Source of the DNA: Pelagibacteraceae bacterium AG-410-N23
Lineage (GTDB): Bacteria; Pseudomonadota; Alphaproteobacteria; Pelagibacterales; Pelagibacteraceae
Direction of reading: 5' to 3'
Length of the DNA stretch: 34,402 bases
Assembly (NCBI GenBank): GCA_003215055.1
Contig: QCKW01000010.1
Span: forward strand, 1-34,402
The position numbers were made by a program, and so were the translations under genes. The notes beneath the pieces are model-generated. The model was not told the origin of the DNA and made no database searches. It worked only from the letters and a program-made list of their open reading frames with translations. Shown piece by piece: positions 5,621 through 33,958 of the stretch. Numbering within the stretch: position 1 is the stretch's first letter; each line of letters begins with the position of its first letter.

Positions 5621-6577
5621 ATGAAAAGAATATTAGTTATTGGCGGTGGTGCGATGGGGTCAGCTTTTACAATCCCATGTCTAGAAAACAAAAATGATGT
5701 CACAATTACTGAACCATATAGCAAAAAATTTATAAGAGACCTATCAACTAAAAAAAAATTCCATTCAGCTTTAAAAGTTAAGCTTTCTAAGAAGTTAAAA
5801 TTTAAGAAATTTTCCAAGAATTTATTGAGGGAAAGATTTGATCTTATAGTAATCGCCTTAAGCTTACCCGGAATAGATTTTATTGGAAAAGAGCTGAAAG
5901 ACAGTAATGTTAAAACCCCAATTTTAGTTCTTACCAAAGGTCTCAAGTATGAGAAAAAAAGTAAAAGAATTTTAACTATTTCTGAACAACTTAGAAAAGT
6001 TTCCGGAACTAGAAATATATCTGTTTTAAAAGGCCCATGTTTAGCAAAAGAATTGGCAAGAAAAAATCAAACAAGTGTTGTTATTGCTAATAAGAGTATT
6101 AATTTTGCGAAGAAAATTGGAAAGAGAATTTCCACAAAATATTATCTTACTGAATTTTCAAAAGATGTGATTGGAGTAGAAGTTTGTTCAGCTATAAAAA
6201 ATATATACTCAATGATAATAGGAGCTGGACAAAGTTTGAATATATCTTCAAATTTATTTCAAAAATCGATAATCGAAATGAAATATCTCACAAAGTATTT
6301 TAAAGGTAATGAAGAGACAACTTTAGGACTCGCTGGAATAGGAGACCTTTACGTAAGTGCAGCAGGAGGCAGAAATAGCAAAATGGGAAATTATTTAGGA
6401 AAAGGATACACATTCAAGAATGCAAAAAAAAAATTCATGCCAAATGATACTGTTGAGGGAGAACAGCTTGCTAGAGAAATTTCTCCTTTTGTCCTAAAAA
6501 AAATAGATAAAAGTAAAGTACCATTGATGGTAAATTTGATTAGAACAATAATTAAAAATAAAAAATTTAAAATTTAA
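5621..6577 (+). CDS. gpsA: NAD(P)-dependent glycerol-3-phosphate dehydrogenase-like protein
   Basis: The 318-residue protein has GpsA family structure: N-terminal Rossmann motif GGGAMGSA (8-15), the GPCLAKELA segment, the SAIKNIYS helix with the catalytic lysine, and [21 protein letters not shown] with the substrate-site aspartate and RN pair. The role would be reduction of dihydroxyacetone phosphate to glycerol-3-phosphate for lipid synthesis, in the cytoplasm. It is divergent (GPCLAKE rather than the usual GPSFAKE) and rather lysine-rich, so it may be a paralogue acting on a related substrate. It starts at ATG 5621, divergent from tmm, and its stop shares the bases TTAA (6574-6577) with the stop of the converging fhs gene. 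The family is confident; true GpsA function is likely but not certain. Confidence 0.78.
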
Positions 6578-8265
6578 AACAAACCTTCAATCTCACCTTT
6601 TTTATTCAGTTTAATTGAGTTGGCTGCAGGAATTTTAGGTAGTCCTGGCATTGTCATTATTGATCCACAAACAACAACTACAAATTCAGCCCCAGAAGAT
6701 AATCTTACCTCTCTAATCGGTATTTCATGGTTAGAGGGTGCTCCCTTAAGTTTAGGATCTGTAGAAAAACTATATTGTGTCTTTGCAATACATACTGGTA
6801 AATGTCCATGACCATTATTTTCAAAAATTTTTAATTGATCTTTAACTTCATCACTACCTGTAATATTACTAGCTTTATAAATTTTTTTGGCAATTAATTC
6901 AATTTTGTCCCATAATTTGAGATCATCCTTGTATAGAAATTGAAATTTATTTTTACTTTTTTTACTAATGCAAATCTTAACAACTTTTTTTGCAAGGTCA
7001 GTTGCTCCTTTTCCGCCTTTCGCCCAATGCTTACATTCACTTACTTCAACTTTCATATTTTCACAAAATTTTAATACTGTCTCAACTTCATTTTTTGTAT
7101 CTAAAGCAAAATGATTTATTGCTACGATTGGCTCTAAACCAAATTGTTTTATATTTAAAATATGTCTCTCTAAATTTACCAATCCTTTTTTTAATGCTTC
7201 TACATTTTCATTTTTTAAATCCTCTTTTTCTACGCCTCCATGCATTTTTAAAGCTCTGATAGTAGCAACGATAACTACACAACTAGGGGTAAGACCAGCT
7301 TTTCTACATTTAATATCTAAAAATTTTTCAGCACCAAGATCTGCACCAAAACCTGCTTCAGTAACTACATAATCTGACAATTTAAGTGCTGTTTTAGTTG
7401 CAATGACAGAATTACATCCATGTGCAATATTTGCAAAAGGACCTCCATGAATAATTGCAGGGTTATTTTCTAAACTTTGAGTTACGTTTGGTCTTATTGC
7501 CTCTTTTAACAAAACTGTCATTGGACCATGAGCATTTAGATCTCTTGCGTAAAGAGGATTTCCCTCTTTATTATAAGCAATTGTAATATTTCCAATTTTT
7601 TTTTCTAAATCATTCAAGTCATTAGATAGACAGAATATTGCCATTACTTCTGATGCAACCGTTATGTCAAAACCATCGACTCTTTTAAAATCTTTTGCTA
7701 CTCCATTTGTATTGATATCAATAAATCTAAGTGCACGGTCATTCATATCCATTACACGTTTCCAAACTATTCTATTTTCATCAATATTTAGTTTATTTCC
7801 CCAATAGATATGATTATCAATCATTGCTGATAATAAATTATGAGCTGACGTTATCGCATGAAAATCGCCAGTAAAATGTAAATTTATTTGTTCCATAGGA
7901 ACAACTTGCGCGTAACCTCCACCAGCTGCACCACCTTTCATTCCAAATGATGGACCTAAACTTGGTTCTCTAAGACAAACGATAGATTTTTTTCCAATCT
8001 TATTTAAACCATCATTCAAACCTACTGAAGTAGTTGTTTTTCCTTCACCCGCTGGAGTAGGAGTAATTGCAGTGACTAAGATTAAATTACCATCTTTTTT
8101 TTTCTTTAATTTATCTAAGAATTCAAAATTTATTTTAGCTATATGTCTGCCCATTGGGCTAAAAGCACTACTTTTATCTGGGACATTGATTTTAGCTAAA
8201 ATTTTATTGATTGGTTTCATTTTAGCTTTTCTAGCTATTTCTATATCAGATTTGATTTTTGCCAT
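6574..8265 (-). CDS. fhs: Formate-tetrahydrofolate ligase
   Basis: The 563-residue enzyme makes 10-formyl-THF from formate, THF and ATP; the reverse direction can yield ATP. The length is normal for the family (about 555-560). Visible motifs are the ATP-binding [12 protein letters not shown] loop (about 68-79), [46 protein letters not shown] and the C-terminal [12 protein letters not shown] stretch. It converges on gpsA with a four-base overlap and is divergent from soxBDAG across 122 bases. Placement beside sarcosine oxidase fits oxidation or salvage of one-carbon units released from methylated amines. Confidence 0.97.
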
Positions 8266-8387: not shown

Positions 8388-9644
8388 ATGCAAAAATACT
8401 CAATATTTAGTTTAGTCAAAAATGCATTTTCCAATCACGAAAACTGGGATTTGGCATGGAAAGACCCTACTCCAAAGAATGAATATGATGTAGTTATTAT
8501 TGGAGGTGGAGGTCATGGCTTAGCCACTGCTTATTATCTCGCAAAAGAGCACAATATTACTAATGTGGCTATCATAGAGAAAGGCTGGATCGGTGGTGGA
8601 AACGTTGGCCGTAACACTACAATAATCAGGTCCAATTATATGCATGATGACAATGCATTGTTCAGTGAATTTGGAATGGATCTTTGGAGAAAGATGAGCC
8701 AAGATTTAAATTATAACGTTATGTTTTCCCCAAGAGGAATTATTAATCTCGCACATTCTGATGCACAGATGAATGTTTATGCAAGAAGAGGAAATTCAAT
8801 GCGCTTAAATGGAATTGATGCAGTACTTTTAAATAGAGAACAAGTAAAAGAAATTATCCCTATGGCAGACTTTTCTGAAAATGTAAGATTTCCAATTTTT
8901 GGTGGACTTATGCAACCAAGCGCTGGTACAGCAAGACATGATGCGGTAGCATGGGGTTACGCTCGTCAGGCGGACTCAATGGGTGTAGATATAATCCAAA
9001 ATTGTGAGGTAATTGGGTTTGATGTTTCAAGCGGAAAAATTCAGGGAGTAAGAACATCTCGTGGAAACATTAAAGCAAAAAAAATTGGATTATGTGTTGC
9101 AGGAAGCACAAATATTTTAGCTGAAAAATTAAATATGACATTACCTATTGAAACTCATCTTTTACAAGCATGCGTTTCTGAACCAGTAAAACCAGTTTTG
9201 GATAAAGTAGTTACTTTTGGTGCTGGACATTTTTATATTAGTCAATCGGATAAAGGTGAGATGGTTATGGGTGGTGATTTAGATGGTTATAACAGCTATG
9301 CACAAAGAGGAAACCTTCCAACACTTCAACATGTTTTAACAGAGGGAATTGCAATGATGCCGTTCTTAAGTAAATTAAAAATGTTAAGAACTTGGGGTGG
9401 AATAATGGACATGTCTATGGATGGTTCTCCAATTATAGACAAAACTCATATTGAAGGATTATATTTAAATTGTGGTTGGTGTTACGGTGGCTTTAAAGCG
9501 ACTCCAGCATCTGGATGGACTTTTGCTCACACTATTGCCCAAGATAGAGTTCATGAATTAAATGCAGGATATAGTTTAAATAGATTCAATACAGGCCACT
9601 TGTTAGATGAGAAGGGCCTTGGCACAAAAACTTGGATTTCGTAA
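8388..9644 (+). CDS. soxB: Sarcosine oxidase, beta subunit
   Basis: The 418-residue flavoprotein subunit of heterotetrameric sarcosine oxidase demethylates sarcosine to glycine. The FAD motif GGGGHGLATAYYLA starts near residue 39, and TARHDAVAWGYARQ carries the histidine (about 184) that covalently binds FMN in this family. The N-terminal extension before the Rossmann strand (about 30 residues, with HENWDLAW) is typical of SoxB. It is first in soxBDAG; the soxD start codon follows the stop without a gap. Methylene-THF and H2O2 are the usual products with THF and O2. The 122-base upstream region should hold its promoter; TATTAT/TATAAA at 8371-8379 is a possible -10, too AT-rich to assert. Confidence 0.96.
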   Translation: MQKYSIFSLVKNAFSNHENWDLAWKDPTPKNEYDVVIIGGGGHGLATAYYLAKEHNITNVAIIEKGWIGGGNVGRNTTIIRSNYMHDDNALFSEFGMDLWRKMSQDLNYNVMFSPRGIINLAHSDAQMNVYARRGNSMRLNGIDAVLLNREQVKEIIPMADFSENVRFPIFGGLMQPSAGTARHDAVAWGYARQADSMGVDIIQNCEVIGFDVSSGKIQGVRTSRGNIKAKKIGLCVAGSTNILAEKLNMTLPIETHLLQACVSEPVKPVLDKVVTFGAGHFYISQSDKGEMVMGGDLDGYNSYAQRGNLPTLQHVLTEGIAMMPFLSKLKMLRTWGGIMDMSMDGSPIIDKTHIEGLYLNCGWCYGGFKATPASGWTFAHTIAQDRVHELNAGYSLNRFNTGHLLDEKGLGTKTWIS

Positions 9645-9914
9645 ATGCTTCATATTAAATGTCCACATTGTGGAATGAGATCTCAAAATGAATTTTCTTA
9701 TGGTGGTGACGCTAGTGTGAAAAGACCTGAACTAGGGAAAGAGGTTACAGATCAAGAGTGGGATGATTTTGTTTATAACAGAAAAAGTCTTAGAGGAAAG
9801 CATTGGGAGCTGTGGCAACATTTATCGGGATGCAGACAATGGATAAAAATTGAGAGAGATACAGCAACTCACGAAATTTTTAATACACTAAAAGCTAATG
9901 AGGAAATTTCATAA
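9645..9914 (+). CDS. soxD: Sarcosine oxidase, delta subunit
   Basis: The 89-residue delta subunit is the small structural zinc-binding component of heterotetrameric sarcosine oxidase. CPHCG (C6, C9) near the start and LSGCRQW with nearby histidines near residue 63 are the expected zinc ligands. The FSYGGDA and KHWELWQH segments are family hallmarks. The ATG follows the soxB stop immediately, and the stop overlaps the soxA start by one base (TAATG), so the four subunits are likely made in fixed ratio by translational coupling. Confidence 0.95.
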   Translation: MLHIKCPHCGMRSQNEFSYGGDASVKRPELGKEVTDQEWDDFVYNRKSLRGKHWELWQHLSGCRQWIKIERDTATHEIFNTLKANEEIS

Positions 9915-12910
9915 TGACTCAAAGTTTCAGATTAGAAAATATTGGGATGATTAATAGAAATAAAAAACTTTCATTCAAATTTAATGGGAAAGTTTATTAT
10001 GGTTATGAAGGAGATACTTTAGCCTCAGCTTTAATTGCAAACGGTGTTCACTTAATTGGAAGAAGTTTTAAATATCATAGACCTAGAGGTTTTTTTGGAG
10101 CAGGGGTAGATGAACCTTATGCAATAGTTCAATTATACAGGAATGGTGAAACTGAACCTAACATAAAAGCTACAGAACAAGAGCTTTTTGAGGGATTAGA
10201 GGCAAAAAGTGTGAATTGTTGGCCTAGTGTAAATTTTGATGTGGGAGCAATAAATAATTTCTTAAGAATTTTTTTACCAGCTGGATTTTATTACAAAACT
10301 TTTATGTGGCCGAAAAGTTTTTGGTATAAAATTTATGAGCCATTTATTCGAAAAGCAGCAGGACTTGGAGTAGCATCTATTAAGCATGACAAAGAAAGAT
10401 ATGAGCATAAGTATGAATATTGTGATTTATTAATTACAGGCTCAGGTCCATCAGGTTTAGCCAGTGCTTATGCTGCAGCGAAGAATGGGGCTAAAGTAAT
10501 TTTAGCTGAGGATAAATCTAGGTTTGGAGGAACATTATTAACCAGTGAAGTTAATATAGGCAATCAATCAGGTAAAGAATGGGCTGAAAGTGTAATTTCT
10601 GAACTTAAAGAAATGCCAAATGTGACTATAAAAAATCGATCACAAGTATTTGGTTATTATGATCATAACATGTTGGTGATGTCAGAAAGAATAAGTGACC
10701 ATTTACCACAAACAAAAAAATTTCATCCAAAACAAAGACTATGGTACATAAGAGCAAAAGAAGTTCTAATTTCTTCTGGATCAATTGAAAGACCAATTGT
10801 TTTTGGGAATAATGATACACCAGGAGTGATGCTTTCATCAGCTGCAAAAGAATATCTCAAAATTTATGGAGTTTTAGTTGGAAAAAATCCTTTAATATTT
10901 ACTAACAATGATAGTGGCTATGAAACCGCAATTGAATTTCAAAAAAATGGTATAAACCCAATTATTTTAGATACAAGAAAAGATCCAAAGTCTGAATTAG
11001 TTGATGAAGCAAAAAATTTAGGAATAAATATTAAATTTTCTTATGTCGTAGTAGCTGCCCAAGGCTATAAAAAAGTAAAATCAGCTGATATTGCAAAAAT
11101 TTCTGAAGATAAAGAACAACTTGGAACAGTAGAAAGTGTTAAGTGTGATTGTATATGTGTATCTGGTTTTTGGACGCCAACAATTCATTTAGCTTCACAA
11201 TCAGGAAATAAAACAAAATTTAAAGAGGATATAGATGCTTTTGTTCCAGGAACATCAAAGCAAAATGAAACTACTTTAGGTGCTGCTAATGGAACTTATA
11301 CTTTAGAGGAAACTTTAAAAAGTTCATTTGAAACTGGCCATAAATTATCAAAAGAAATTACCAAAAATGACAATAAGATTTCTTTTCCAAATGTAATTGA
11401 AAAAAAATCAACTGTTCATGATAAATTTTGGTGTGTTCCACTTCCAAAAGGAAAAAATTATAAAAGATTTTTAGATTTTCAAAATGATGTTGCGGTATCT
11501 GACATAGAAATTGCTTTAAAAGAAGGATACAGATCAATTGAACATGTTAAGCGATATACGACCCTTGGAATGGCGACTGATCAAGGTAAAACAAGTAATC
11601 TTAATGGTTTACAATTAGTATCAAAAATAGAAAACAAAGTTGTACCAGCTGTTGGTCACACAACGTTTAGACCTCCATATACTCCAGTTTCAATCGGAGC
11701 GATAGTGGGAAGGGAGGTTGGAAAACATTCAAAACCAACACGAAAATCTCCAATGCATTCATGGCATGAGAAAAATAATGCAGTCTTTGTTGATGCTGGA
11801 GTGTGGTTAAGACCGAGATATTACAAGCAGGGGGATGAAAATTTATTTGAAGGATCAAAAAGGGAAGCAAAAAATGTAAGAACTAATGTTGGAGTTTGTG
11901 ATGTAACTACATTAGGTAAAATAGATATCAAAGGTCCAGATGCTGCAGAATTGCTTAATAGAGTTTATACCAACGCATGGTTAAAGTTACCGGTAGGTAA
12001 AGCAAGATATGGTGTTATGTTACGAGAAGATGGTATTGTTATGGATGATGGAACAACCACAAGAATTTCAGAAAATCATTATCATATGACAACCACTACT
12101 GCTCAAGCTGCAAATGTTCTTTCACACTTAGAGTATTATTTACAATTAGTTTGGCCAGAGTTGAATGTGAATGTTGTCTCAACTACAGAACAATGGGCAG
12201 GGGCCGCAATAGCTGGACCAAAATCAAGAAATTTATTACAAAAATTATTTCCAAAATCTGATGTATCAAATGAGGGTTTGCCTTTTATGGGCTATATGGA
12301 GGGTGATCTGTTTGGAGTAAAGGCTAGAATTTTTAGAATTTCATTTTCAGGTGAACTTGCATACGAAATAAATGTTGAGTCAGATAATGGAAACTTTATG
12401 TGGGAAAAGATAATTGAAGTTGGTCAAGAATTTAAGATCCAACCATATGGCACAGAGGCACTATCAACTTTAAGAATTGAGATGGGGCATGTAGCAGGAT
12501 CAGAACTTGATGGAAGGACAATTCCTTATGATAATTCTCTTGAAGGTTTATTGAGCAAAAAGAAAGATTTTATTGGAAAAAGATCTTTAACTAGAAAGGC
12601 ATTTATATCTGAAGATAGACAGAAAATTGTTGGTGTTATTCCTTTAGATAAAAAAACAAGCATTCCAGAAGGATCACATTTGGTTAAAGATTCAAGTGCG
12701 CCACTACCAAATCCAAAATTAGGATATATTTCAGCTTCTTGTTGGAGCGTTGAGCACGATAATCCATTTTCTTTAGCTATTGTTAAAGATGGAAAAAATA
12801 TGATTGGTAAAAAACTATTTGTAATGTCCCCGCTGAAAAATAAAGTTATTCCAGTTGAAATAGTTTCTTCACATTATGTTGATCCAAAAGGTGAAAGAGT
12901 TAGATCATGA
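9914..12910 (+). CDS. soxA: Sarcosine oxidase, alpha subunit
   Basis: This 998-residue protein is the large subunit of heterotetrameric sarcosine oxidase. An N-terminal ferredoxin-like domain (about 15-110, with [15 protein letters not shown] and SFKYHRPRG) is followed by an NAD-binding Rossmann domain ([13 protein letters not shown], about 176-188). A C-terminal aminomethyltransferase (GcvT-like) domain from about residue 612 binds tetrahydrofolate and captures the methyl carbon as methylene-THF. The ESG-type GcvT segment appears as [12 protein letters not shown] near residue 815. Length is normal for the family. It overlaps soxD by one base and soxG by four (ATGA). Confidence 0.96.
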
Positions 12911-13494
12911 GCTCAATTTCTGCATTAGCAAAAGTTCATTTGTTAGGACAATTTGGTGATTGTGAAGGTAAAAATGAAAATAATCTTTTAAAAATCTCAG
13001 AAATAAAAAATTTATTGATAGTCCAAATAGTTCAATATAAAAATTCTACAGTTTCAATTGATAGTATTGATATTGATGGTTTAAAATTTAAAGATGAGTC
13101 ATTAAAAGTGATAAATAATAATGATACAAGAATACTATGGAATGGACCAAAAAATTGGCTTTTAGTTTCAACAAAAAAAAATTTAATTAAAAATGTTTTA
13201 CAAAATTTTAAAGAATCAGATTTTGCTGTAACAGACTTATCTCATTCAAGGGCCATAATTGAAATGGAAGGACAAGAAGTTAAAGAAGTTTTAAAGAAAG
13301 GATGTCCATTTAATTTTAGTTCTTTAGAAAAAGATAATTCAATTAACTCCATTTATAATGGAATAGCTTTCACAGTTGATTTAATTAAAGACAATCCTGA
13401 CAAGGTGAGATTATTCACTCTAAGAAGCTTTGGAGAATCTTTTTATCATTCCATCACAGATGCTTCTTTAGAATTTGGCTTTAAAACATTGTAA
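12907..13494 (+). CDS. soxG: Sarcosine oxidase, gamma subunit
   Basis: The 195-residue gamma subunit is assigned from position as the last soxBDAG gene (four-base ATGA overlap with soxA), size, and family-type segments such as [13 protein letters not shown] near residue 75 and [14 protein letters not shown] near residue 108. SoxG has a fold related to the GcvT N-terminal region and helps assembly; it has no known catalytic residues of its own. It is poorly conserved in sequence, so context is the main support. The gene ends 6 bases from the end of the converging DMT permease gene, with no room for a separate terminator. Confidence 0.9.
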
Positions 13495-21136: not shown

Positions 21137-21748
21137 ATGAAATCCTTTAGTGAGATAGAGACTACAGTTAAAAGGGCAAGTCGGGCTGCTGGCTACTCAT
21201 GGGGTATAGCAGAGGAAGTCGGGAAATCTATAAGATTATCCGAATTATTTGGTTTTCCAGCTATCAAACATCTTAATCAATATTATCAAAATAAAAAAAA
21301 AGAAAATTTTGAGGAGATAAAATTGATCAATGAGATTAACAAATCAGATGGATCATTTTTTTGTCCAATTATTTTGGGTGTTAATTTTATTGACCAAGTA
21401 AAAAACCTTGAAATTTTAAAAAAGTGCTCGGTCGAAAATCTTGCTTATCCATTGTTGTTTTTACCTTTTTTGAGTAGAGCTTCAGAAATTATTGGAAAAA
21501 AATTATTAATTTCATTTGACGATTGTAAATTTTTATTGAATTTTAATGTTAGTATTTCATCTAATATTTGGGATAAAGAAATGTCAATGCTAGCAAAAAA
21601 AGTAGAAATAAGTTTTTTAGACAATGAAGATAATTTTTCAGATCAAGATTGGAAAAATCTCTACAAACTTGCAGAGGATACATTTGTTGAGGAAACTGAT
21701 AGTTTAAAAGAGGGCGCAGCAGGTGCTGGCTTGACTGACAATGATTGA
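21137..21748 (+). CDS. DUF3726-like protein, 203 aa
   Basis: The N-terminal FSEIETTVKRASRAAGYSWGIAEEVGKSIRLSELFG segment resembles what I recall of DUF3726, a family of unknown function in marine proteobacteria; this is from memory and unverified. The C-terminal part contains ISFLDNEDNFSDQDWKNLYKLAEDTFVEETDSLKEGAAGAG, and the protein ends in a flexible glycine-rich tail. No catalytic motif is seen. It begins three bases after the 553-residue gene and overlaps the next small gene by eight bases, so it is the third member of a tightly packed four-gene unit. Confidence 0.75.
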   Translation: MKSFSEIETTVKRASRAAGYSWGIAEEVGKSIRLSELFGFPAIKHLNQYYQNKKKENFEEIKLINEINKSDGSFFCPIILGVNFIDQVKNLEILKKCSVENLAYPLLFLPFLSRASEIIGKKLLISFDDCKFLLNFNVSISSNIWDKEMSMLAKKVEISFLDNEDNFSDQDWKNLYKLAEDTFVEETDSLKEGAAGAGLTDND

Positions 21749-21902
21749 AGATGACAATTTAAAAGAAAAAGATTTGAAGGACCTTGATGATATATGTGAT
21801 GAATGTAAAGAAAAAGATGAGAGTGTTTCTCAAAATTTAATATTAACAGGTTTTAAAATTTGCAAATCCTGTAGAGTATCTAAAACTATTTTTCCTATTT
21901 AG
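21741..21902 (+). CDS. Small four-cysteine (zinc-ribbon-like) protein, 53 aa
   Basis: ATG 21741 starts inside the end of the DUF3726-like gene (eight-base overlap) and the frame runs to TAG 21900-21902. The 53 residues have an acidic first half with CDEC (19-22) and a second CKSC (41-44), a spacing that fits a zinc ribbon or rubredoxin-like metal knuckle. The overlap with the upstream gene and the ordered cysteine pairs support it as real. It could be a metal-binding partner of the three upstream proteins. Its end overlaps the converging Yip1-like gene by four bases. Confidence 0.7.
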   Translation: MIEDDNLKEKDLKDLDDICDECKEKDESVSQNLILTGFKICKSCRVSKTIFPI

Positions 21903-22441
21903 ATTTGATTAATCGGCAGTGCATCCATTCTACTCATAACAAATGAAATCGATAAAAATACTATGATTAAAAAAGATAAGAAAACAATACCAAAAGATTT
22001 AAAACTAGATTTAAGGTTAAAAATTTGTTTTGTTGAAATTATTAATCCAGCAAAGATCCAAAATTGTGTAAGAAAAATAATGGTTATCATAAGGTCAGGT
22101 GTGACAGCAAAAAATCTTAATAAACCTGGAGCATGTGCAAAACCTACTGCAGTAAGCACTTTCTTGAAAGATGCCTTTGTTTGTTTGTCTGGAAAAATTT
22201 TGACACCCAATACATAAATTAAAATTGACCAAACAAACCATGTTAAAATGGCAGTCAGTCCAGACATTGCTATCGCAGTTTTAATGATAGTGTTTGCAGC
22301 AACGGCCCCTGCAATACCATCTAAAATCATTATTATCCCTGCAAAGTATATTGAGGCTTCTCCAAAATTTTTTGGATCTTTATAAAGTGATTTGTCTAAC
22401 TTTATAGATTTAAATACAATATTTAGAAATTCACCAAACAT
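21899..22441 (-). CDS. Yip1-domain-like integral membrane protein
   Basis: The 180-residue protein has about five hydrophobic helices (roughly 29-48, 54-80, 92-112, 114-136 and 148-168) after a polar N-terminus with KLDKSLYKDPKNFGEASIYFAG. The arrangement and the VWSILIYVLGVKIFP and VGFAHAPGLLRFFAV segments fit the Yip1 family found in alphaproteobacteria. Function is unknown. The 5' end overlaps a possible 40-residue membrane peptide, and the 3' end overlaps the four-cysteine gene by four bases. Confidence 0.72.
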   Translation of the reverse strand: MFGEFLNIVFKSIKLDKSLYKDPKNFGEASIYFAGIIMILDGIAGAVAANTIIKTAIAMSGLTAILTWFVWSILIYVLGVKIFPDKQTKASFKKVLTAVGFAHAPGLLRFFAVTPDLMITIIFLTQFWIFAGLIISTKQIFNLKSSFKSFGIVFLSFLIIVFLSISFVMSRMDALPINQI

Positions 22442-22553: not shown

Positions 22554-22582
22554 AAAAAGGGAGGGGATTTAATTCCCCTCCC
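22554..22582 (-). terminator. Intrinsic terminator of the metF-gcvT-like operon
   Basis: On the minus strand GGGAGGGGA and TCCCCTCCC (22559-22567 and 22574-22582) form a perfect 9-bp G/C-rich stem with a 6-base loop, immediately followed by TTTTT (22554-22558). It lies 8 bases after the demethylase-like gene. In DNA this AT-rich such a G/C stem is very unlikely by chance. Confidence 0.92.
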
Positions 22583-22590
22583 AAGAAATA

Positions 22591-23949
22591 TTAACCTTTG
22601 CTAACCTCTCTAGTGTTTGCGTTGAAAGACTCTTTAAATGGTATATCAACTACAACTGCATCTACAGGTTTTCCTGGAGTATTAGAGTATTTTTCAGGTA
22701 AATGAACTTTAAATTTTGTCCCAACTTTGCCTTTTGGAAATCCATTTGCATTTAAAGTTCCATCAAATGGTACGTATCCCATAGCAATATTAGTTTTCTT
22801 TTCTGGGTGGTACCATGGTGAAGTTACAAATCCTACAGGGTCTCCACCAGATTCATTAGATATTAACCAAAAATCTGGAGCGTAGTCCTCGATAGGTTTA
22901 CCACCTAATTCCAGTCCAACTAACTGAAGCTTATAAGGTTTTTTACCATCCTTAAGTTCTTTGCCCATTTTTTCTAAAGTGGCTTTACCAACATAATCTG
23001 CTTTTTTATTCCACTCACCTTTGCCAGATAGTGAAACTTGATAACCTAAATTACATTGATAAGGATTATGTTGCATATCCATATCTTGTCCCCACGAAAG
23101 AATACCAGCTTGAATTCTTCTATGGTGCGCAGGAGCAATAACCATTAATTTATGTTTTTTACCCGCCTCAAGAACAGCATTCCACATATCATCAGCATAT
23201 AAAGTAGCATTTCTTAAATAAATTTCATATCCAGCCTCGCCAGAGAAACCTGATTGTGAAATTACACAACTTCTTCCACCAACTTTAACTTCAGCTAAAC
23301 CATAAAAAGGCATATTGTCAAAATCAACTTGATCCCCACAAAGATCTTTCATCAAAGCTTTTGATTTAGGACCTTGTATTTGAACAGGGCAAGCATCTAT
23401 TTCTTCAATAGTACAATTAAATCTACCATCAGCATTGACACCCTGTAAATACATTCCTATGTCAGAGTCAGATAATGAAAACCAAAATTCATCTTTCGAA
23501 ATTCTTAAAAGAATTGGATCATTTAAAACTCCACCATAAGCATTACATAAAATTACATATCTCGCCCTCATGGGAGAAATTTTAGTTGCATCTCTAGTAA
23601 TAACGTAATCTGTAAATTTTTCTGCATCAGGACCTTTAACTCTTATTTGTCTTTCAACAGCAACGTTCCACATTGTAACGTGATTTACAATAGCATCATA
23701 TTCAACCATTGCTCCACCATCTTCAGGTCTGACATATCCCCTAGGATGATAAATACGATTATAAACAGTTGCTCTCCAACATCCTGCTTTCATTGATAAA
23801 TGCCAATAAGGTGATTTTCTAACCCTTGTTGAAATTAACATTTCAACTTTAGTTGGCCCACTTTGTCTTAAATTGTATGGTACTTCTCTATCTGATTGAT
23901 CAACAGAGGTAACATGTTTTAGTTTAGTATAGTCAAATTCTTTAGACAT
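22591..23949 (-). CDS. GcvT/DmdA/LigM-family tetrahydrofolate-dependent demethylase (substrate unknown)
   Basis: The 452-residue protein belongs to the aminomethyltransferase fold. Visible features: IRVKGPDAEKFTDYVITRD, the NAYGGVLNDPILLRI stretch that lines the THF site in GcvT, VQIQGPKSKALM, and SGFSGEAGYEIYL near residue 232. The GcvT C-terminal barrel lies at about 330-440. It is longer than SAR11 DmdA (about 370) or GcvT (about 365) and nearer in length and layout to LigM, the THF-dependent vanillate O-demethylase. I start it at ATG 23949: AAGGAGA lies 7 bases upstream, whereas ATG 23955 has the SD directly against it. Its start overlaps metF by eight bases, so methyl-THF from demethylation would pass to the coupled reductase. 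A DMSP demethylase paralogue remains possible. Confidence 0.85.
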   Translation of the reverse strand: MSKEFDYTKLKHVTSVDQSDREVPYNLRQSGPTKVEMLISTRVRKSPYWHLSMKAGCWRATVYNRIYHPRGYVRPEDGGAMVEYDAIVNHVTMWNVAVERQIRVKGPDAEKFTDYVITRDATKISPMRARYVILCNAYGGVLNDPILLRISKDEFWFSLSDSDIGMYLQGVNADGRFNCTIEEIDACPVQIQGPKSKALMKDLCGDQVDFDNMPFYGLAEVKVGGRSCVISQSGFSGEAGYEIYLRNATLYADDMWNAVLEAGKKHKLMVIAPAHHRRIQAGILSWGQDMDMQHNPYQCNLGYQVSLSGKGEWNKKADYVGKATLEKMGKELKDGKKPYKLQLVGLELGGKPIEDYAPDFWLISNESGGDPVGFVTSPWYHPEKKTNIAMGYVPFDGTLNANGFPKGKVGTKFKVHLPEKYSNTPGKPVDAVVVDIPFKESFNANTREVSKG

Positions 23950-24715
23950 AACCATTCTCCTTCAACCACTTGTTAGTTTCCTTCAAGCCGCCGAATGTAT
24001 AAATGTGGAAGAAATCAGTATGCGATTTAACTTTCCCAATTAAGTCATTAGGGTCTTTAGGTTTCAATAAATCTAACGCCTTACTAAAATTAGATTTAAG
24101 AAAGTTAAGGGAATTTTTTGCTCCAACAATATTAGCAAATTTAATTAAGCTAGATATTTTTAGAGGCCCAGTAATTCCTACATGTACTGGCACGCTTTGT
24201 TTAGATATAAAGTCAATGATAGGCTGAGGATCGAGTAACCATTGAGTTACAATATAGTCAGCATAAGGCTTTTTATCTATCATAGCTTTTTCTAAATCTG
24301 AGTCGGATATATCAGGACTCCCCTCTGGGTGTCCAGCAATTCCTATTGTCATCTTCTCAAAATAACCAGTTTCTAAAAGTTGAAACGAGCTGTCAAATTT
24401 TCCTAAAGGTTCTCTACCACCACCAATTATTAAAACCTGTTTTACCCCTCCATCCTTACACCTTGAAATATAATCTTTTAGTTGTTTCTCGTCATGCATT
24501 GATCTTGCTGGAAAATGAGGTACGGGGTTAAAGCCTTTTTTTACAAGCTCAACTGCCTGTTGTGCAGTTTCTCTGTAGTCTCCTCCAGGCAACATTGTAA
24601 TGTAAATATCATTTACAGGAGGTACCGTTGAAAGGTCAGTTTGAGGTCCAATTTCCAAAGAAAATTTCATTATCCGATCATTATCTTTTTTAAAAAAGCT
24701 GTCAAAGAAATTCAT
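23942..24715 (-). CDS. metF: Methylenetetrahydrofolate reductase-like protein
   Basis: The 257-residue protein has the MetF TIM-barrel layout: FSLEIGPQ holds the catalytic glutamate (E21, as E28 in E. coli MetF), HFPARSM lies at about 67-73, and VLIIGGGREPLG is the flavin-binding region. IGIAGHPEGSP and YIVTQWLLDPQPIIDF follow, ending in VGITGPLKISSLIKFA. It interconverts methyl-THF and methylene-THF. Paired with a demethylase it would run in the oxidative direction. It is a little shorter than E. coli MetF (296). ATG 24670 (MKFSLEI) is an alternative start 15 residues in. A divergent Rieske gene starts 34 bases upstream, so the two units likely share a control region. Confidence 0.88.
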   Translation of the reverse strand: MNFFDSFFKKDNDRIMKFSLEIGPQTDLSTVPPVNDIYITMLPGGDYRETAQQAVELVKKGFNPVPHFPARSMHDEKQLKDYISRCKDGGVKQVLIIGGGREPLGKFDSSFQLLETGYFEKMTIGIAGHPEGSPDISDSDLEKAMIDKKPYADYIVTQWLLDPQPIIDFISKQSVPVHVGITGPLKISSLIKFANIVGAKNSLNFLKSNFSKALDLLKPKDPNDLIGKVKSHTDFFHIYTFGGLKETNKWLKENGYV

Positions 24716-24748
24716 TAAAGGGTGTGGCGAAATTTGTTGCCAAAAAAA

Positions 24749-25966
24749 ATGCTCGTGTTAATTTTTTTTGTGGACCAAAATCTAAAAAACTTACCCCTCT
24801 CAAAAATACTAGATATTGAGAAACTTAATAATGTTGATAATTCAATAGAAGTGGCTAATGGCCTACCCAATGAGTGTTATACGAGTAAAGACTATTTTGT
24901 GCATGAAAGAGAAAAGGTTTTTTTCAATAAATGGACTGTTGTTGGGGTAGCAAGTTCTTTACCAAATCCTGGAGATGCTAAACCTCATAATCTTTTAGGA
25001 GTTCCACTGATTATAGTAAGAGATAAAAAAATGCAGATTCGTGTTTTTCATAACGTTTGTAGTCACAGGGGTTTTAAACTCTTAGATAAACCATGTTCTT
25101 TAAAAAATGTTATTAGATGTCCTTATCATTTTTGGTCATATGATTTTAGTGGAAAACTTGTTGCAACACCCCATATTGGTGGTTTGAATATCCATCAATC
25201 AAATAATTTTGATAAAACAAAAAGTAATTTAAAAGAAGTAAAAACTAAAGTTTGGATGGATATAATTTTTGTTAATATCAATTCAAATGAAATCGATTTT
25301 GATGAATATATTAAACCTTTAGAAAACAGATGGTCAAAGTTTGTAAGTAAAAAAGATCATAATTTTCTAGTACACTCAAATGACTACGGTTATTTCAATT
25401 TAGAAGTAGGATGTAATTGGAAATTTGCAATTGAAAATTATTGTGAAAGTTATCATTTGCCTACAATTCATCCAGAGTTAAATAAAGTTTCAAACATTAA
25501 TGATCATTATCATATTCAAGGACTACCTAATAGATTTGCTGGACAAGGAAGTAAAAAGTACGAACAACCCATAAAAGGAAATAAAAAATTTAACACTTTT
25601 TCTAATTGGGATAAAGGGATGTTAAAAAATTCTGAGTATATAGCCTTGTTTCCAAATATAATGATAGGTTTACACATAGATCATTTTTATGTTTTTTGGT
25701 TAGAACCGTTAGCCATGAATAAAACTAAAGAACATATGCAAATATATTATGTTGGAGATGAAAGTGCTAACGGTAATGAATTAAAAGATTTAAGAAAAGA
25801 AAACTCAAGGTTCTGGAAAGATGTTATGTTAGAGGATGTTAGAGCAATTGAGGGAATGCAAGAAGGAAGAAATTCACCAGTTTATAATGGTGGAAATTTT
25901 TCTCCTGTAATGGATCAACCGACTCATCAATTTCATAAATGGGTAGTAAATAGTTTAATGAGGTAA
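24749..25966 (+). CDS. Rieske [2Fe-2S] oxygenase, quaternary-amine type
   Basis: The protein (405 residues from ATG 24749) is the oxygenase subunit of a Rieske non-haem iron enzyme. The cluster motif CSH-17 residues-CPYH is intact. The iron-site segment ENYCESYHLPTIH has Glu before Tyr-His and a second His four residues later. An E-x-Y-H arrangement is what I recall from glycine-betaine, stachydrine and carnitine oxygenases (GbcA, Stc2, CntA) and differs from the Asp of aromatic dioxygenases. The frame opens earlier at GTG 24722, and GTG 24770 is also possible; the true start is unsettled. No reductase partner is in the window. It is divergent from the metF-demethylase pair. Confidence 0.85.
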   Translation: MLVLIFFVDQNLKNLPLSKILDIEKLNNVDNSIEVANGLPNECYTSKDYFVHEREKVFFNKWTVVGVASSLPNPGDAKPHNLLGVPLIIVRDKKMQIRVFHNVCSHRGFKLLDKPCSLKNVIRCPYHFWSYDFSGKLVATPHIGGLNIHQSNNFDKTKSNLKEVKTKVWMDIIFVNINSNEIDFDEYIKPLENRWSKFVSKKDHNFLVHSNDYGYFNLEVGCNWKFAIENYCESYHLPTIHPELNKVSNINDHYHIQGLPNRFAGQGSKKYEQPIKGNKKFNTFSNWDKGMLKNSEYIALFPNIMIGLHIDHFYVFWLEPLAMNKTKEHMQIYYVGDESANGNELKDLRKENSRFWKDVMLEDVRAIEGMQEGRNSPVYNGGNFSPVMDQPTHQFHKWVVNSLMR

Positions 25967-25972
25967 AAGATA

Positions 25973-26602
25973 ATGGCACTTAAAGATGTTGGAAATAAAG
26001 TTCCTATTTATAAACTCAAAACAACCAGCGAGGTAATGAAATATTATGACGAGTGGGGTGAGCAGAATAAATATAATAAAGATATGGTTGAATGGAATTA
26101 TACTGGCCCACAAGAAACTGTTGAAGTTTTTAAAAAATATGAATTAAATAAGGAAGCGCTTATTTTTGATGCTGGTTGTGGAACTGGTTTAGTAGGATTA
26201 GAATTAAAAAAATTTGGTTATAAAAATTTTTATGGAGCTGATCTTTCACAAAAGTTACTAGATACAATTCCAAATAATCTTTACCAAAAATTAACTAAAG
26301 TTGATTTAAATAAAGCTATAGATGAAAAAAATGATTTTTATGATTCAGTAATGTGTGTTGGAACTTTTACTTTTGGACACGTTAAACCACAAGCTCTAGA
26401 TGAATTTGTGAGAATTACAAAAAAAGATGGATTAATATGTTTTACAATAAATGAGGGTATTTATAAAGAATATGGTTTTGATAAAAAGATTGATACATTA
26501 AAAAAAGAGGGGAAATGGAAAGAATTGGAATTTTTTAAATCTGATTATATTGCTAGTAAAGATGTAAATGCATGGCTTGGATTGTATAGGGTAAATAAAT
26601 GA
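25973..26602 (+). CDS. Class I SAM-dependent methyltransferase
   Basis: The 209-residue protein has the SAM-binding motif DAGCGTGLVGLELKKFG (about 67-83), an acidic GADLSQK strand-2 end and a VMCVGTFTFGHV motif where motif IV should lie, so the fold is that of small-molecule methyltransferases. The N-terminal KYYDEWGEQNKYNKDMVEWNY segment resembles a lid helix of that group. Acceptor substrate is unknown. It begins 6 bases after the Rieske gene and overlaps the kinase-like gene by four bases (ATGA), so it is the second gene of one transcript. Confidence 0.88.
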   Translation: MALKDVGNKVPIYKLKTTSEVMKYYDEWGEQNKYNKDMVEWNYTGPQETVEVFKKYELNKEALIFDAGCGTGLVGLELKKFGYKNFYGADLSQKLLDTIPNNLYQKLTKVDLNKAIDEKNDFYDSVMCVGTFTFGHVKPQALDEFVRITKKDGLICFTINEGIYKEYGFDKKIDTLKKEGKWKELEFFKSDYIASKDVNAWLGLYRVNK

Positions 26603-29823: not shown

Positions 29824-32256
29824 ATGAAATCTAAAACAAAAGTAGTAGTCGTTGGTGGTGGAGTAGTTGGTGTAAGTGCACTTTACCATTTAGCAAAAAA
29901 AGGGTGGTCAGATGTTGTCTTAGTTGAAAGAAAAGAATTAACGTCTGGTTCAACTTGGCACGCGGCTGGATTATTACCTCTTTTTAATATGAGTTATTCA
30001 GTCGGACAACTTCACAAATATGCAGTCGACCTATATAAAAAATTAGAGGAAGAAACAGGAAAAAATGTTGGTTTTAGTGTTGTATCAAATATTCGTTTAG
30101 CTAGCACTAAAGATCGTATGGATGAGTATCATCAATATGCTGGTGTTGCAAAAACTATCGGAGTTGATGTAAAATTTTTAACTCCTCAACAAGTAAAAGA
30201 GATTTGGCCCTTATGTCATACAGATGATTTAGTTGGAGCTATTCAACATCCTGAAGATGGATATATTCAGCCTGCTGACTTAACACAAGCACTGGCAACT
30301 GGGGCAAGAAACAGAGGAGCAGAAATTTATAGAAACACAACTGTCTTATCTATGAAACAAACCAAAAATGGATGGATCGTTGAAACTGATAAAGGATCAA
30401 TAGAATGTGAGCATGTTATTTCTTGTTCAGGAAATTTTGCAAGACAAACTGGAGAAATGGTTGGTTTAGATATTCCAGTTATTCCAGTTGAACATCAATA
30501 TATTGTAACTGAACCTCATCCTGAAATTCAAAAAAGAAAAAAAGATGGTTTACCTGAAATGGGAGTATTAAGAGATAGTGATAGCAGATGGTATATGAGA
30601 GAAGAAGCTGGTGGTTTAATTTTAGGTCCTTACGAAGATGGAGCACCTGCTTGTTATGTTGAGGGTCCATCAAAAGAGTCAGAGTATGAATTATTTCAAG
30701 AAGACTTAGATAGACTTGCACCGCATATTGAAGGAGCAATACATAGAGTACCAGCGTTTGGAGAGGTAGGTGTAAAAAAAGTTTACAATGGAGCAATTTG
30801 TTATACTCCAGACGGTAATCCGATAGTTGGACCTGCTTGGGGATTAAAAAATTTTTGGATTAATGAAGGACATAGTTTTGGAATTACTGCTGCAGGTGGT
30901 GCAGGTTGGCAATTAGCAGAATGGATTGTAGATGGAGAACCAACAATTGATATGCTCGGCGTGGAACCTAGACGTTATGGAAATTATGCAACTAAATCTT
31001 ATTTAAAGGCTAAAAATGAGGAAGCATACAGTCATGTTTTTATAGTTCATTATCCAGATGAGGAAAGACCGGCAGCAAGACCACTTAGAACTTCACCATG
31101 TTATGAAAGAATGAAAAATCTTGGTGCTGTATTTGGACAAAAGTTTGGATGGGAAAGACCTAATTTTTTTGCAACTGATGGTATGGAACAAAAAGATGAT
31201 TGGTCTTTTAGAAGATCAAAATGGTTTGATGCAATAAAGAAGGAATGCGAAAATGTAAAAAAAAATGTTGGTCTTTTAGATATGACCGCGTTCGCAAAAT
31301 GTAGAATTAAAGGTCCCAAAGCCGAAGAATTTTTAGATTACTTAGTGGCTAACAAACTTCCAAAAAAGATTGGAAGAATTAATTTATGTCACGCACTTAA
31401 TACTAAAGGTGGAGTTCATTCAGAGTTTACAATAATGAAAGAAGCTGAAAATAGTTATTATCTTGTTTCTGCAGGAGCAAACTTAAGACTAGATCACGAT
31501 TGGATACAAAAATGGATGCCAACTGATGGATCTGTAATATTTGAAGATCTTACAAATAGTAATGGAGTACTTGTAGTAGCAGGTCCAAAAGCTAGAGAAT
31601 TAATGCAAAAAGTTTCAGCTGACGATTTTTCAAACGAAAATTTTAAATGGCTTACAGCTAAAAATGTAAATGTTGGATATGCGCCTGTTAATGCTATGCG
31701 AGTAAACTTTGTAGGTGAGCTAGGCTGGGAATTGCATCATCCAATTGAGTATCAAAACCATATTTTTGATAAATTGATGGATGCGGGTAAAGATCTAGGA
31801 ATTAAACCTTTTGGTATTAGAGCCATGAATAGTTTGAGAATTGAAAAATCTTATAAACTAGTTGGTACAGAATTATCAATTGAGTACTCACCTTACGAGT
31901 CTGGATTAGATAGGTTTGTTCATCCTAATAAAGGAAACTTCATCGGCCTTGAAGCACTAAATAAATGGAGACAAAAAGGTTTTGATAATAAGTTAGTTAC
32001 ACTTGAAGTCCACAACACAACTGACTCAGATGTTTTAGGAAACAACCCTATTTACAAAGATGATAAGGTAGTTGGAAGAGCTACTGGCGGTGAATATGGA
32101 TTTAGATTAGATAAATCAATTGCTTTAGCAATGGTTAAACCTGATTTAGCGAATGTTGGTGAAAAACTTAAAGTTGATATTCTTGGAAAAATGTATGAGG
32201 CTACAATATTAGAGGAAAGCCCATATGATGCAGAAAATAAATTATTGAGAGCTTAA
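29824..32256 (+). CDS. Dimethylglycine dehydrogenase-like flavoprotein with GcvT domain
   Basis: The 810-residue protein pairs a DAO-type FAD domain with a GcvT-like domain. [17 protein letters not shown] binds FAD, and STWHAAGL carries His46, the residue that covalently holds FAD in DMGDH and sarcosine dehydrogenase. The GcvT part begins near residue 440, with [11 protein letters not shown] near residue 635. It should oxidise N-methylglycine compounds, form methylene-THF and pass electrons to ETF, whose genes follow with one-base overlaps. Sarcosine is already covered by soxBDAG, so dimethylglycine is the likelier substrate, but sequence alone does not separate DMGDH from sarcosine dehydrogenase. 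Confidence 0.85.
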
Positions 32257-33005
32257 TGAAAATCTTAGTCGCAGTAAAAAGAGTTATTGATTATAATGTT
32301 CAGATTAGAGTTAAAGAAGATGGTACAGGTGTTGTTACTGATAATGTTAAGATGTCAACTAATCCACCTGATGATAATGCAATAGAAGAAGCAGTGAAAA
32401 TTAAAGAGGCTGGAAAAGCAACCGAAGTTGTTGCAGTTTCTGTAGGAGAAGAAAAAGCACAAGAGACTGTTCGAAAAGCTTTGGCCGTGGGTGCTGATAG
32501 AGGAATTCTTGTAAAGGCTGATGGAGTTATTGAGCCACTAGCAGTATCAAAAATTTTACAGAAAGTTGTTGAAAAAGAAAAGCCTGATTTAGTTTTTATG
32601 GGGAAACAAGCAATTGATGATGATTGTAATCAAACCGGACAAATGTTGGCAGCATTATTGAATTGGCCTCAAGCAACATTTGCATCTAAAATTGAAGTTA
32701 AAGATAAATCATTAGAGGTTACAAGAGAAATAGATGAAGGTTTAGAAACCATTGAAGTAAATGTCCCAGCAATTGTAACGTGCGATTTGCGATTAAATGA
32801 ACCCAGATATGCCTCTTTACCAAATATAATGAAAGCCAAAAAAAAACCAATTGAACAAATTACAGCATCAGATCTTGGTGTAGATACAAAACCAAGGATA
32901 GAACAGATTAAAGTTGAAGAACCACCAAAAAGAAAAGCAGGGATAAAAGTCGCAAGTGTAGAAGAATTGGTTCAAAAATTAAAAAATGAGGCTAAAGTAA
33001 TATAA
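32256..33005 (+). CDS. etfB: Electron transfer flavoprotein, beta subunit
   Basis: The 249-residue beta subunit binds AMP in the ETF heterodimer. It shows the family segments [65 protein letters not shown] and the ETF-beta signature around [21 protein letters not shown]. It overlaps the DMGDH-like gene by one base (TAATG) and etfA by one base, so the electron acceptor is made with the dehydrogenase. Confidence 0.97.
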
Positions 33006-33958
33006 TGTCAGTTTTATTAATCGCAGAACATAACAATAAAGAATTTAAACCTTTTACATTAAATGCAATTTCAGCTGCATCACAAATAAATGAAGATGTA
33101 CATGTTTTAATTTTGGGCTCAAATTCAGACAGTGTTGCTAAATCTATTTCTGAAGTTCCTAATGTGAAAAAGGTTATACATGTAAATAATAGCCTATATG
33201 AAAATTATCTTGCTGAAAACTATACTTCAGCAGTAATTAAGATTGCTGGAAATTATTCACACATCGTCTGCTCAGCCAATACATTCGGTAAAAATCTAAT
33301 GCCAAGAATTGCAGCTTTATTAGATATTTCTCAAGTAAGTGATATTACAAAAGTAATTTCTGAAGATACTTTTTTAAGACCAATCTATGCTGGAAATGCA
33401 TTCGCAACAGTAAAAAGTACAGATAAAATTAAATGTGTAACAATCAGGCCCACGTCTTTTGATCCTGCACCAACGTCTGGAGGGTCTGCTGAAATTACAA
33501 ATGGTGAGCCTGGAGATGCTTCTGAAGTATCAAAATTTTTAAAAAAAGAAGAAATTAAATCTGATAGACCAGAATTGGGTACTGCAAGGGTGGTTGTATC
33601 AGGTGGAAGGGGAATGCAAAGTGGAGAAAACTTTAAATTAATTACAGCAGTAGCTGATAAACTTAATGCTGCAATTGGAGCATCAAGAGCTGCTGTGGAT
33701 GCAGGATATATTACAAATGACCATCAAGTTGGACAAACAGGCAAAGTTGTCGTGCCCGATTTATACATCGCAGTAGGAATTTCTGGAGCCATTCAACATT
33801 TGGCTGGAATGAAGGAAAGTAAAGTAATTGTTGCAATAAATAAAGATGGAGAGGCCCCAATATTTAGTATTGCAGATTATGGTCTTGAAGCAGATCTTTT
33901 TGAGGCACTCCCAAAATTTCTTGAAGAATTGAACAAATTAAACACTATACAAAAATAA
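33005..33958 (+). CDS. etfA: Electron transfer flavoprotein, alpha subunit
   Basis: The 317-residue alpha subunit binds the FAD of ETF. The C-terminal half has VVSGGRGM, GASRAAVDAGYITNDHQVGQTGKVV, PDLYIAVGISGAIQHLAGM and KDGEAPIFSIADYGLEADLFEALP, all matching ETF-alpha. It is placed between etfB (one-base overlap) and the ETF-quinone oxidoreductase gene (24 bases downstream). Confidence 0.97.
   Translation: MSVLLIAEHNNKEFKPFTLNAISAASQINEDVHVLILGSNSDSVAKSISEVPNVKKVIHVNNSLYENYLAENYTSAVIKIAGNYSHIVCSANTFGKNLMPRIAALLDISQVSDITKVISEDTFLRPIYAGNAFATVKSTDKIKCVTIRPTSFDPAPTSGGSAEITNGEPGDASEVSKFLKKEEIKSDRPELGTARVVVSGGRGMQSGENFKLITAVADKLNAAIGASRAAVDAGYITNDHQVGQTGKVVVPDLYIAVGISGAIQHLAGMKESKVIVAINKDGEAPIFSIADYGLEADLFEALPKFLEELNKLNTIQK

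Follow-up and report, generated by a model that had tools for sequence, protein, structure and literature searches.

A GcvT-family protein encoded in overlap with a short MetF in Pelagibacteraceae: a putative tetrahydrofolate-dependent demethylation unit with glycine betaine as candidate substrate

DmdA and LigM are demethylases that use tetrahydrofolate (THF) as methyl acceptor, and both make 5-methyl-THF (PMC5395565, PMC6888825). They were used here as the reference systems for a gene pair found in a 34,402-nucleotide stretch of Pelagibacteraceae bacterium AG-410-N23 (assembly GCA_003215055.1, contig QCKW01000010.1, positions 1 to 34,402), referred to below as the window. Its assembly has a size of 0.92 Mb and is 80% complete. 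The pair consists of a GcvT-family gene of 452 codons and a short metF of the 5,10-methylene-THF reductase family. In strain HTCC1062, SAR11_1265 was described as adjacent to metF, closely related to dmdA and a 'probable AMT with unknown substrates', with the speculation that it acts on the second methyl group of dimethylsulfoniopropionate (DMSP) (Sun et al. 2011, PMC3160333). By their pairing and description, the only grounds of comparison, SAR11_1265 and SAR11_1264 would be the same pair. The original prediction for the window had likewise left the substrate unassigned. A functional assignment of a pair of the SAR11_1264/1265 type was not found in the literature covered, which leaves most subscription journals outside.

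In Sphingobium SYK-6 the genes are arranged in the order ligM-metF-ligH, and methyl-THF depends on O-demethylation despite the presence of metF (PMC6888825). This need for demethylation in a strain that holds metF suggests that MetF of SYK-6 runs in the oxidative direction; a dedicated paper on its biochemistry was not found among the matches listed. For HTCC1062, expression of metF and SAR11_1265 moves together. In stationary phase under sulfur limitation and in the control, mRNA amounts to 0.20 and 0.12 of the exponential level for metF and to 0.10 and 0.10 for SAR11_1265; the protein changes listed in Table 1 of that study are 1.29- to 1.46-fold, and in sulfur-limited exponential cells no mRNA change is listed for either gene, unlike bhmT (PMC5069961).

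The step proposed here, from glycine betaine to dimethylglycine, is also that of BHMT, MtgB (MTTB) and GbcAB. GbcAB belongs to another family and uses O2. BHMT and MtgB are of other families as well, using homocysteine and cobalamin (PMC12478193). The same source (2025) gives MtgBCD as the route for roseobacters and many further marine bacteria and reports no MtgC in Pelagibacteraceae; BHMT has been proposed for the first step in SAR11 and is called 'not experimentally validated' there. The methyl groups of glycine betaine, a major marine osmolyte, are oxidised to CO2 by SAR11 (PMC3160333). SAR11 is described as being without MetE and MetH (PMC12478193, PMC5069961), and therefore methyl-THF would have no methionine-synthase outlet in these cells. 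BrdA, a THF-dependent berberine demethylenase (PMC5547118), has no bearing on the substrate, likewise PMC12421898, PMC3686209 and PMC7157515, and the literature found on homarine and THF and on haloarchaea and DMSP had no bearing on the function of the pair.

Based on the comparison below, we lean slightly towards the reading that the pair is a redox-neutral THF-dependent demethylation unit in which MetF oxidises the methyl-THF formed, with glycine betaine as the likeliest substrate. The 452-aa protein would bind THF in a DmdA/GcvT-like fold and methylate it at the expense of a small quaternary ammonium osmolyte, which loses one methyl group, giving the demethylated donor and 5-methyl-THF. The short MetF, working in the oxidative direction, would convert 5-methyl-THF to 5,10-methylene-THF, which FolD and Fhs would oxidise further with formation of NAD(P)H and ATP. 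With glycine betaine as donor and dimethylglycine as product, this would be a cobalamin-free and oxygen-free first step before dimethylglycine dehydrogenase (DMGDH) and sarcosine oxidase. The data below show the structure of the genes, the class of fold, the separate clade, the neighbourhood and the co-occurrence with DMGDH-type enzymes. We infer this chemistry and the direction of MetF from what DmdA and LigM do, the pairing in SYK-6, the match of MetF to 7XG9, the lack of MetE and MetH in SAR11 and the single methylene-THF reductase of the assembly; glycine betaine is put forward as the hypothetical donor. The original prediction of a unit that strips a methyl group onto THF and oxidises it to methylene-THF fits a protein that appears to lie outside DmdA and GcvT and is coupled to metF.

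The GcvT-family open reading frame (ORF) extends from 22591 to 23955, encoding 454 aa from its first ATG and 452 aa from the ATG at 23949, which is the start aligned in relatives. The metF ORF (23942-24715) could encode 257 aa; because its N-terminal extension holds an in-frame stop in at least nine of 30 SAR11 loci, the true start is probably ATG 24670, giving 242 aa, and a metF ORF of 242 aa is found in two of the four SAR11 loci viewed. The start of the GcvT-family gene overlaps metF by eight bases, as originally predicted, and all 30 SAR11 loci (the window's own, L007, included) share an overlap of exactly 8 bp; 'fused', the word used for it, does not suit two overlapping genes. A terminator belonging to the pair was also correctly foreseen. 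It has a perfect 9-bp stem with seven GC pairs and a T5 tail (22582-22559, -19.5 kcal/mol), and was called for the quality of this stem rather than for the number of sites, the scanned region containing one terminator-like site against 1.6 in shuffled sequences. Promoter-like sites numbered seven against 10.1 in shuffles and are not enriched.

Profile searches assigned the 452-aa protein to the GcvT family (PF01571 135 bits, PF08669 26.5 bits), and no specific model reached its cut-off: 225 bits on the DmdA model NF009133 (cut-off 410), 146 and 125 bits on the GcvT models NF001567 and TIGR00528 (300 and 235.85), and 35.4 and 39.4 bits on LigM NF047885 and DesA NF047633 (580 and 800). The best GCV_T score of the assembly (263 bits) belongs to a separate frame of 395 aa. 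The solved sequence closest to the 452-aa protein is DmdA 3TFH (E 7.5e-41), with LigM at E 1e-6. Its AlphaFold2 model (24 rows, pLDDT 80.5, pTM 0.82) has its best fold match in 3TFH as well, with TM 0.76 by query and 0.92 by target, against 0.59 by query or target for LigM. With DmdA the protein shares the GcvT fold, THF-binding positions and, as expected from these, redox-neutral transfer to 5-methyl-THF; it differs in its clade, in coupling to metF and in being about 80 residues longer (452 versus 369). The excess length noted in the original prediction therefore stands, although in the model it is in good part a low-confidence N-terminal tail (residues 1-41, mostly pLDDT below 50). The likeness to LigM drawn from it does not, and a LigM-like reading was rejected on the model scores, the distance in the tree and the lower TM value. 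What the pair has in common with SYK-6 lies in the logic of the operon, a THF demethylase with metF and formate-THF ligase, and in the type of MetF, while the demethylases are distant in sequence and fold and the proposed onium osmolyte differs from the O-methyl aromatics of SYK-6. The window MetF scores 25.8 bits on PF02219, is the sole methylene-THF reductase match in the assembly, and has a single PDB match at E 0.001, namely 7XG9 (E 5e-34), which we take to be the MetF of SYK-6.

The placement in a tree, suggested as a check together with the original prediction, was carried out with 83 rows (IQ-TREE quick, LG+C20). This single tree, in which several long branches were flagged, contains no DesA or trimethylamine N-oxide demethylase rows, and LigM is represented by two rows, of which one scores below the LigM cut-off. 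The window protein falls squarely within neither DmdA nor GcvT and groups with its relatives in a clade of 37 rows, named clade X (SH-aLRT 99; 100 without its deepest row), separate from the DmdA clade, GcvT, LigM and a roseobacter/SAR11 clade named R. A branch of 6.15 changes per column leads to the two LigM rows; the deep forks among clade X, DmdA and other DmdA-like clades, and with them the sister of clade X, are unsettled. Other members of clade X score 229-275 bits on the DmdA model, its deepest row (G212) 337. One sequence above the DmdA cut-off, D_L180, also lies outside the DmdA clade and was for this reason left out of the DmdA comparison set, which has 17 rows, i.e. 15 above the cut-off plus P_L195_0 and P_L197_0 (identical to D_L170). 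DmdA homologs have previously been placed in 'non-DmdA' clades, one of which was labelled DmgdH by threading (PMC7487153, 2020); that clade is not equated with clade X here.

In DmdA, a Ser, a Glu and a Tyr bind folate and a Trp (W171) is the key residue for DMSP (PMC7487153); in our mapping of its numbers onto 3TFH, which also underlies the folate positions, W171 corresponds to W197. The DmdA positions S122, E204, Y206, D108, W58 and W120 are conserved in 34-37 of the 37 clade X rows. E204 and D108 are also present in two GcvT rows, S122, Y206, W58 and W120 are not. By contrast, K199, Q200, E238 and N249 are replaced by G, E, R and Q in 36-37 rows, the first two without exception, and W197 by F in 36 of 37, a weak comparison because the DmdA set itself has nine Trp and eight Tyr at this position. 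With the folate positions conserved and these others replaced, the core for methyl transfer to THF looks kept in clade X and the donor side changed.

Further DmdA-like clades were observed during this comparison. Clade R occurs on two roseobacter plasmids (L041:6971-8113 and L042:6974-8113) in the order Lrp regulator, GcvT-like gene, OsmC, enoyl-CoA hydratase and acyl-CoA synthetase, and in SAR11 as paralogs at 34-36% identity (L192, L193, L194 and L196; L189 is also listed). On the DmdA model (cut-off 410) three of its members narrowly miss the threshold with 376, 384 and 394 bits. Another separate clade (L190:5181-6371 and L191) is found in relatives of the window's family, the copy in L190 being flanked by two DMGDH-type genes with 42% and 33% identity to the window DMGDH. 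On two SAR86 contigs and one Cryomorphaceae contig (L102, L108, L111) a further DmdA-like paralog, 33-34% identical to the window protein and adjoining a DMGDH-type gene, lies between the clade X gene and metF.

Clade X is widespread in the window's family, with a match at E 1e-100 or better in 112 of 197 genomes, the window's own included (counted by eye as 128 genomes with any match minus 16 with a weaker best match). One of these 16, G112, holds a fragment of 78% identity. The single-contig genome G003 of the same genus has a copy 96% identical to the window protein and, in addition, a DmdA that matches Ca. Pelagibacter ubique 3TFH over its whole length (643 bits), from which we infer that the window belongs to SAR11. 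In a draw of 385 Alphaproteobacteria genomes, 19 carry clade X. The loci with named carriers examined below are the best 80 of 588 relatives in a ranking by similarity to a sequence from Alphaproteobacteria; they come from Rhodobacterales, SAR86, Gemmatimonadota, Halomonas, Litchfieldella, Marinobacter, Arthrobacter, Pseudonocardia, Rhodospira, Nitrospinae, Halocatena and others. Overall the clade spans SAR11, SAR86, other Proteobacteria, Gemmatimonadota, Actinobacteria and haloarchaea; members across phyla and haloarchaea are 51-82% identical to the window protein, and copies on haloarchaeal plasmids 50-57%. In five copies of genus g4 (G181, G117, G027, G128 and G075) one in-frame TAA or TAG was seen inside the matched frame.

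The neighbourhood of the 80 named loci was searched for chosen one-carbon (C1) and dimethylglycine families only; DMSP genes were not part of this search. A DMGDH-type gene was found in 34 loci, 18 times within 600 bp, against a rough chance expectation of about 1.3% per locus, a figure calculated as if gene order were random and the loci independent, which does not hold for related genomes. Twenty-three loci have metF, 20 of them at a distance of up to 600 bp, 12 have Fhs, eight SoxA and six BCCT. Clustering of the neighbouring ORFs (Louvain) gave, after the gene itself, clusters of 44, 34 and 20 loci whose representatives are spurious ORFs across the gene (other frames or antisense); the next were the DMGDH-type cluster with 33 loci and MetF with 17, and the following one had ten. 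L098, a SAR86 contig, and L101, a gammaproteobacterial metagenome-assembled genome, each have BCCT, a DMGDH-type gene and the clade X gene in succession; the BCCT of L098 scores best on a model for glycine betaine uptake (466 bits, below the cut-off of 650). Three alphaproteobacterial genomes of 1.4 Mb (L064, L065, L067) show SoxB, SoxA, DMGDH-type gene, MetF and clade X in one same-strand run, and in Rhodospira trueperi (L148) Sox, DMGDH and the X-metF pair occur together. The order X-metF-fhs of L147, of Halomonas salinarum and of two Marinobacter loci (L128, L157, L159) mirrors ligM-metF-ligH. In two Rhodobacterales loci (L083, L090) a canonical-type MetF, not the short kind, follows directly after the clade X gene; that of L083 scores 217 bits on PF02219 and 239 on TIGR00676 (under the cut-off of 294), that of L090 is 76% identical to it, and metF was apparently recruited independently here.

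The DMGDH of the window matches rat and human DMGDH over the full length (658 and 649 bits, E 2e-196). Relatives with 56-79% identity to it adjoin clade X in other Alphaproteobacteria, and neighbours at 56-72% were found in L139, L147, L148, L151 and L156. Altogether, the DMGDH-type partners diverge into three or more kinds, among them a window type, a halo type and an Arthrobacter type. Four haloarchaeal loci were viewed. In three of them a methylene-THF reductase lies near the clade X gene, accompanied by SHMT in L037, by FolD and BCCT in L038 and by a Rieske protein and an FAD oxidoreductase in L039; the fourth has none of these six. L037 and L039 are haloarchaeal plasmids of about 0.4 Mb that combine the methylene-THF reductase with an aspartoacylase-family gene and an FAD oxidoreductase, next to creatininase in L037 and the Rieske gene in L039, a context that may point to an archaeal island for the catabolism of betaine- or creatine-type compounds.

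Co-occurrence at the genome level was determined with FAO_M as the marker of DMGDH-type genes, which matches in 139 of the 385 genomes of the Alphaproteobacteria draw. All 19 clade X carriers have it, versus 120 of 366 non-carriers (Fisher 1.7e-9 by genome and 1.1e-6 by genus, related genomes not being independent). Twenty-five carriers were selected by hand for further examination, namely 18 genomes behind named loci and seven others; G003, G017, G226, G224 and G494 belong both to these and to the 19. FAO_M is present in 24 of the 25. Neither a GbcA match, nor PF06253 (MTTB), nor a stand-alone PF02574 (BHMT family) was found in five: G113 (SAR11), G600 and G602 (SAR86), G607 (Arthrobacter castelli) and G608 (Rhodospira trueperi), the sole PF02574 match of the last lying in a MetH-sized frame. 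In each of the remaining 20, GbcA, MTTB or PF02574 was matched at least once, some of these matches being weak or of other function.

Glycine betaine is the methyl donor upstream of dimethylglycine in the choline-to-glycine route, and as a quaternary amine, out of reach for flavin enzymes such as DMGDH, it would suit redox-neutral transfer. In this way a question published in 2011 is narrowed by comparative genomics to one leading substrate. Whether clade X amounts to a fourth enzyme class that demethylates glycine betaine, namely a glycine betaine:tetrahydrofolate methyltransferase that acts directly, needs no cobalamin, homocysteine or O2 and feeds MetF, appears evenly balanced to us. With BHMT alone, each turnover would be tied to one homocysteine; a THF-dependent enzyme followed by an oxidative MetF would, if true, explain how cells without MetE and MetH burn methyl groups for energy. 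It would also give a function to a gene open since 2011 and present in more than half of the genomes of the window's family, and would help to explain the breakdown of glycine betaine by the ocean's commonest bacteria.

A number of observations weigh against this substrate. Sun et al. assigned glycine betaine to a predicted BHMT and postulated that the other AMT, SAR11_1303, located beside glycine betaine transporter genes, acts on it (PMC3160333). None of the searched C1 and dimethylglycine genes was found within the available stretch of 36 of the 80 named loci; of the 51 loci that extend for 5 kb or more to either side, 21 were without such a gene and 30 had one. Halomonas salinarum has X-metF-fhs, and no FAO_M match was found in it. 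GbcA is present above its cut-off of 670 in the carriers Halomonas salinarum and Litchfieldella (836 and 861 bits), PF02574 in 18 of the 25 carriers (some MetH-sized) and the MTTB family in eight, G494 and Halocatena among them. The remaining six of these eight are the Rhodobacterales carriers examined. Because GbcA or MTTB is also held by some carriers, clade X is not always the sole glycine betaine route. Arthrobacter sp. C2 has a DMGDH-type gene about 5 kb away from one that is GbcA-like (392 bits, below the cut-off), and its clade X gene is situated among housekeeping genes. In addition, DMGDH-type enzymes are not all specific for dimethylglycine.

Several of these points also fit a unit of the same chemistry acting on another methylated onium osmolyte, such as proline betaine, beta-alanine betaine, a carnitine-related compound, choline or a sulfonium other than DMSP, which we regard as a tentative but serious second possibility. 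The DMGDH-type partner would then act on the demethylated product or be a mere fellow C1 gene. The gene is kept in carriers with an alternative route for glycine betaine, loci without dimethylglycine neighbours exist, the DMGDH-type partners are divergent, and SAR11_1303 already has glycine betaine assigned to it (PMC3160333). Set against this are the full-length match of the window DMGDH to the characterised mitochondrial enzyme, with its relatives neighbouring clade X, the recurrence of sarcosine oxidase-like genes, and conservation across phyla and haloarchaea at a level that suggests one common substrate.

With glycine betaine the present reading departs from that of Sun et al., who speculated on the second DMSP demethylation for SAR11_1265 (PMC3160333). 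Such a step, from methylmercaptopropionate (MMPA) to mercaptopropionate, or a back-up DMSP demethylase, has in its favour that DmdA is the closest characterised relative, and is nevertheless unlikely. In 16 of the 25 carriers no DmdA above the cut-off was found, for which reason clade X is not tied to DMSP; K199/Q200 are replaced throughout and the key Trp position (weak test) nearly so; the recurring neighbours, in a search without DMSP genes, are dimethylglycine and C1 genes; and DmdB, DmdC and DmdD are already described for MMPA in SAR11 (PMC5069961). A unit running in reverse, in which MetF makes methyl-THF and the GcvT-family protein methylates an acceptor with it, is very improbable. MetF is biosynthetic in most bacteria, and both enzyme directions in our scheme are inferred only, which speaks for it; the neighbours DMGDH, Sox, Fhs and BCCT are catabolic, and SYK-6, with metF in the ligM operon, needs O-demethylation for its methyl-THF (PMC6888825). 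Least probable of all is an aromatic O-demethylase like LigM or DesA, given the low scores, tree distance and fold match, and with the Rieske gene, missing beside the pair in G113, as the sole aromatic-type gene among the window genes scanned, despite the similar length (LigM PDB chains have 474-475 residues) and the shared operon logic with metF and fhs.

Judged by its predicted genes, the window is a C1 island (Table 1).

Table 1. Predicted features of the window relating to the gene pair and to C1 metabolism.
Feature	Position	Strand	Basis and remarks
Trimethylamine monooxygenase	4145-5476		NF058570 744 bits, cut-off 675
Formate-THF ligase (Fhs), C1 oxidation	6574..8265	-	PF01268 875 bits
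Sarcosine oxidase-like genes (SoxB-like, SoxA, SoxG), proposed third step	8388..13494	+	SoxA TIGR01372 1312 bits; DAO and SoxG Pfam
Intrinsic terminator of the pair	22559..22582	-	9-bp stem, 6-nt loop, T5 tail
GcvT-family (DmdA-related, clade X) gene, putative THF-dependent demethylase	22591..23949	-	452 aa; PF01571/PF08669, own tree clade, AlphaFold2 model
Overlap of metF stop and GcvT-family start	23942..23949	-	8 bp
Short MetF (5,10-methylene-THF reductase family)	23942..24670	-	likely 242 aa; PF02219, 7XG9 match
Promoter-like TTGACA-17-AATGAT, directly upstream of the 242-aa metF start	24677..24705	-	consensus match only, 10/12
Rieske oxygenase	24722-25966		divergent from the pair, 6 bp from the metF ORF
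Dimethylglycine dehydrogenase (DAO-FAO_M-GCV_T), proposed next step	29824..32256	+	full-length match to rat/human DMGDH
ETF beta and alpha, after DMGDH	32256..33958	+	PF01012, PF00766

The Rieske oxygenase gene was considered as part of the unit and rejected, with 120 bits of the required 670 on the GbcA model. It is a loose neighbour, being absent beside the pair in G113, which keeps metF-X without an adjoining Rieske gene and has no NF058607 match. Two small adjoining genes, at 26599-27006 (kinase-like P-loop) and 27006-27380 (nucleotidyltransferase-like), have weak family matches only; in those SAR11 loci that contain them, identity is 88-99%. A 553-aa protein (19472-21133) gave no Pfam or NCBIfam match, and occurs at 77-80% identity in two of the four SAR11 loci viewed; the next gene encodes a DUF3726 protein (21137-21748). 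On the downstream side of the terminator, a 180-aa protein (21899-22441) without Pfam match adjoins the pair in all four SAR11 loci viewed, with 83-87% identity.

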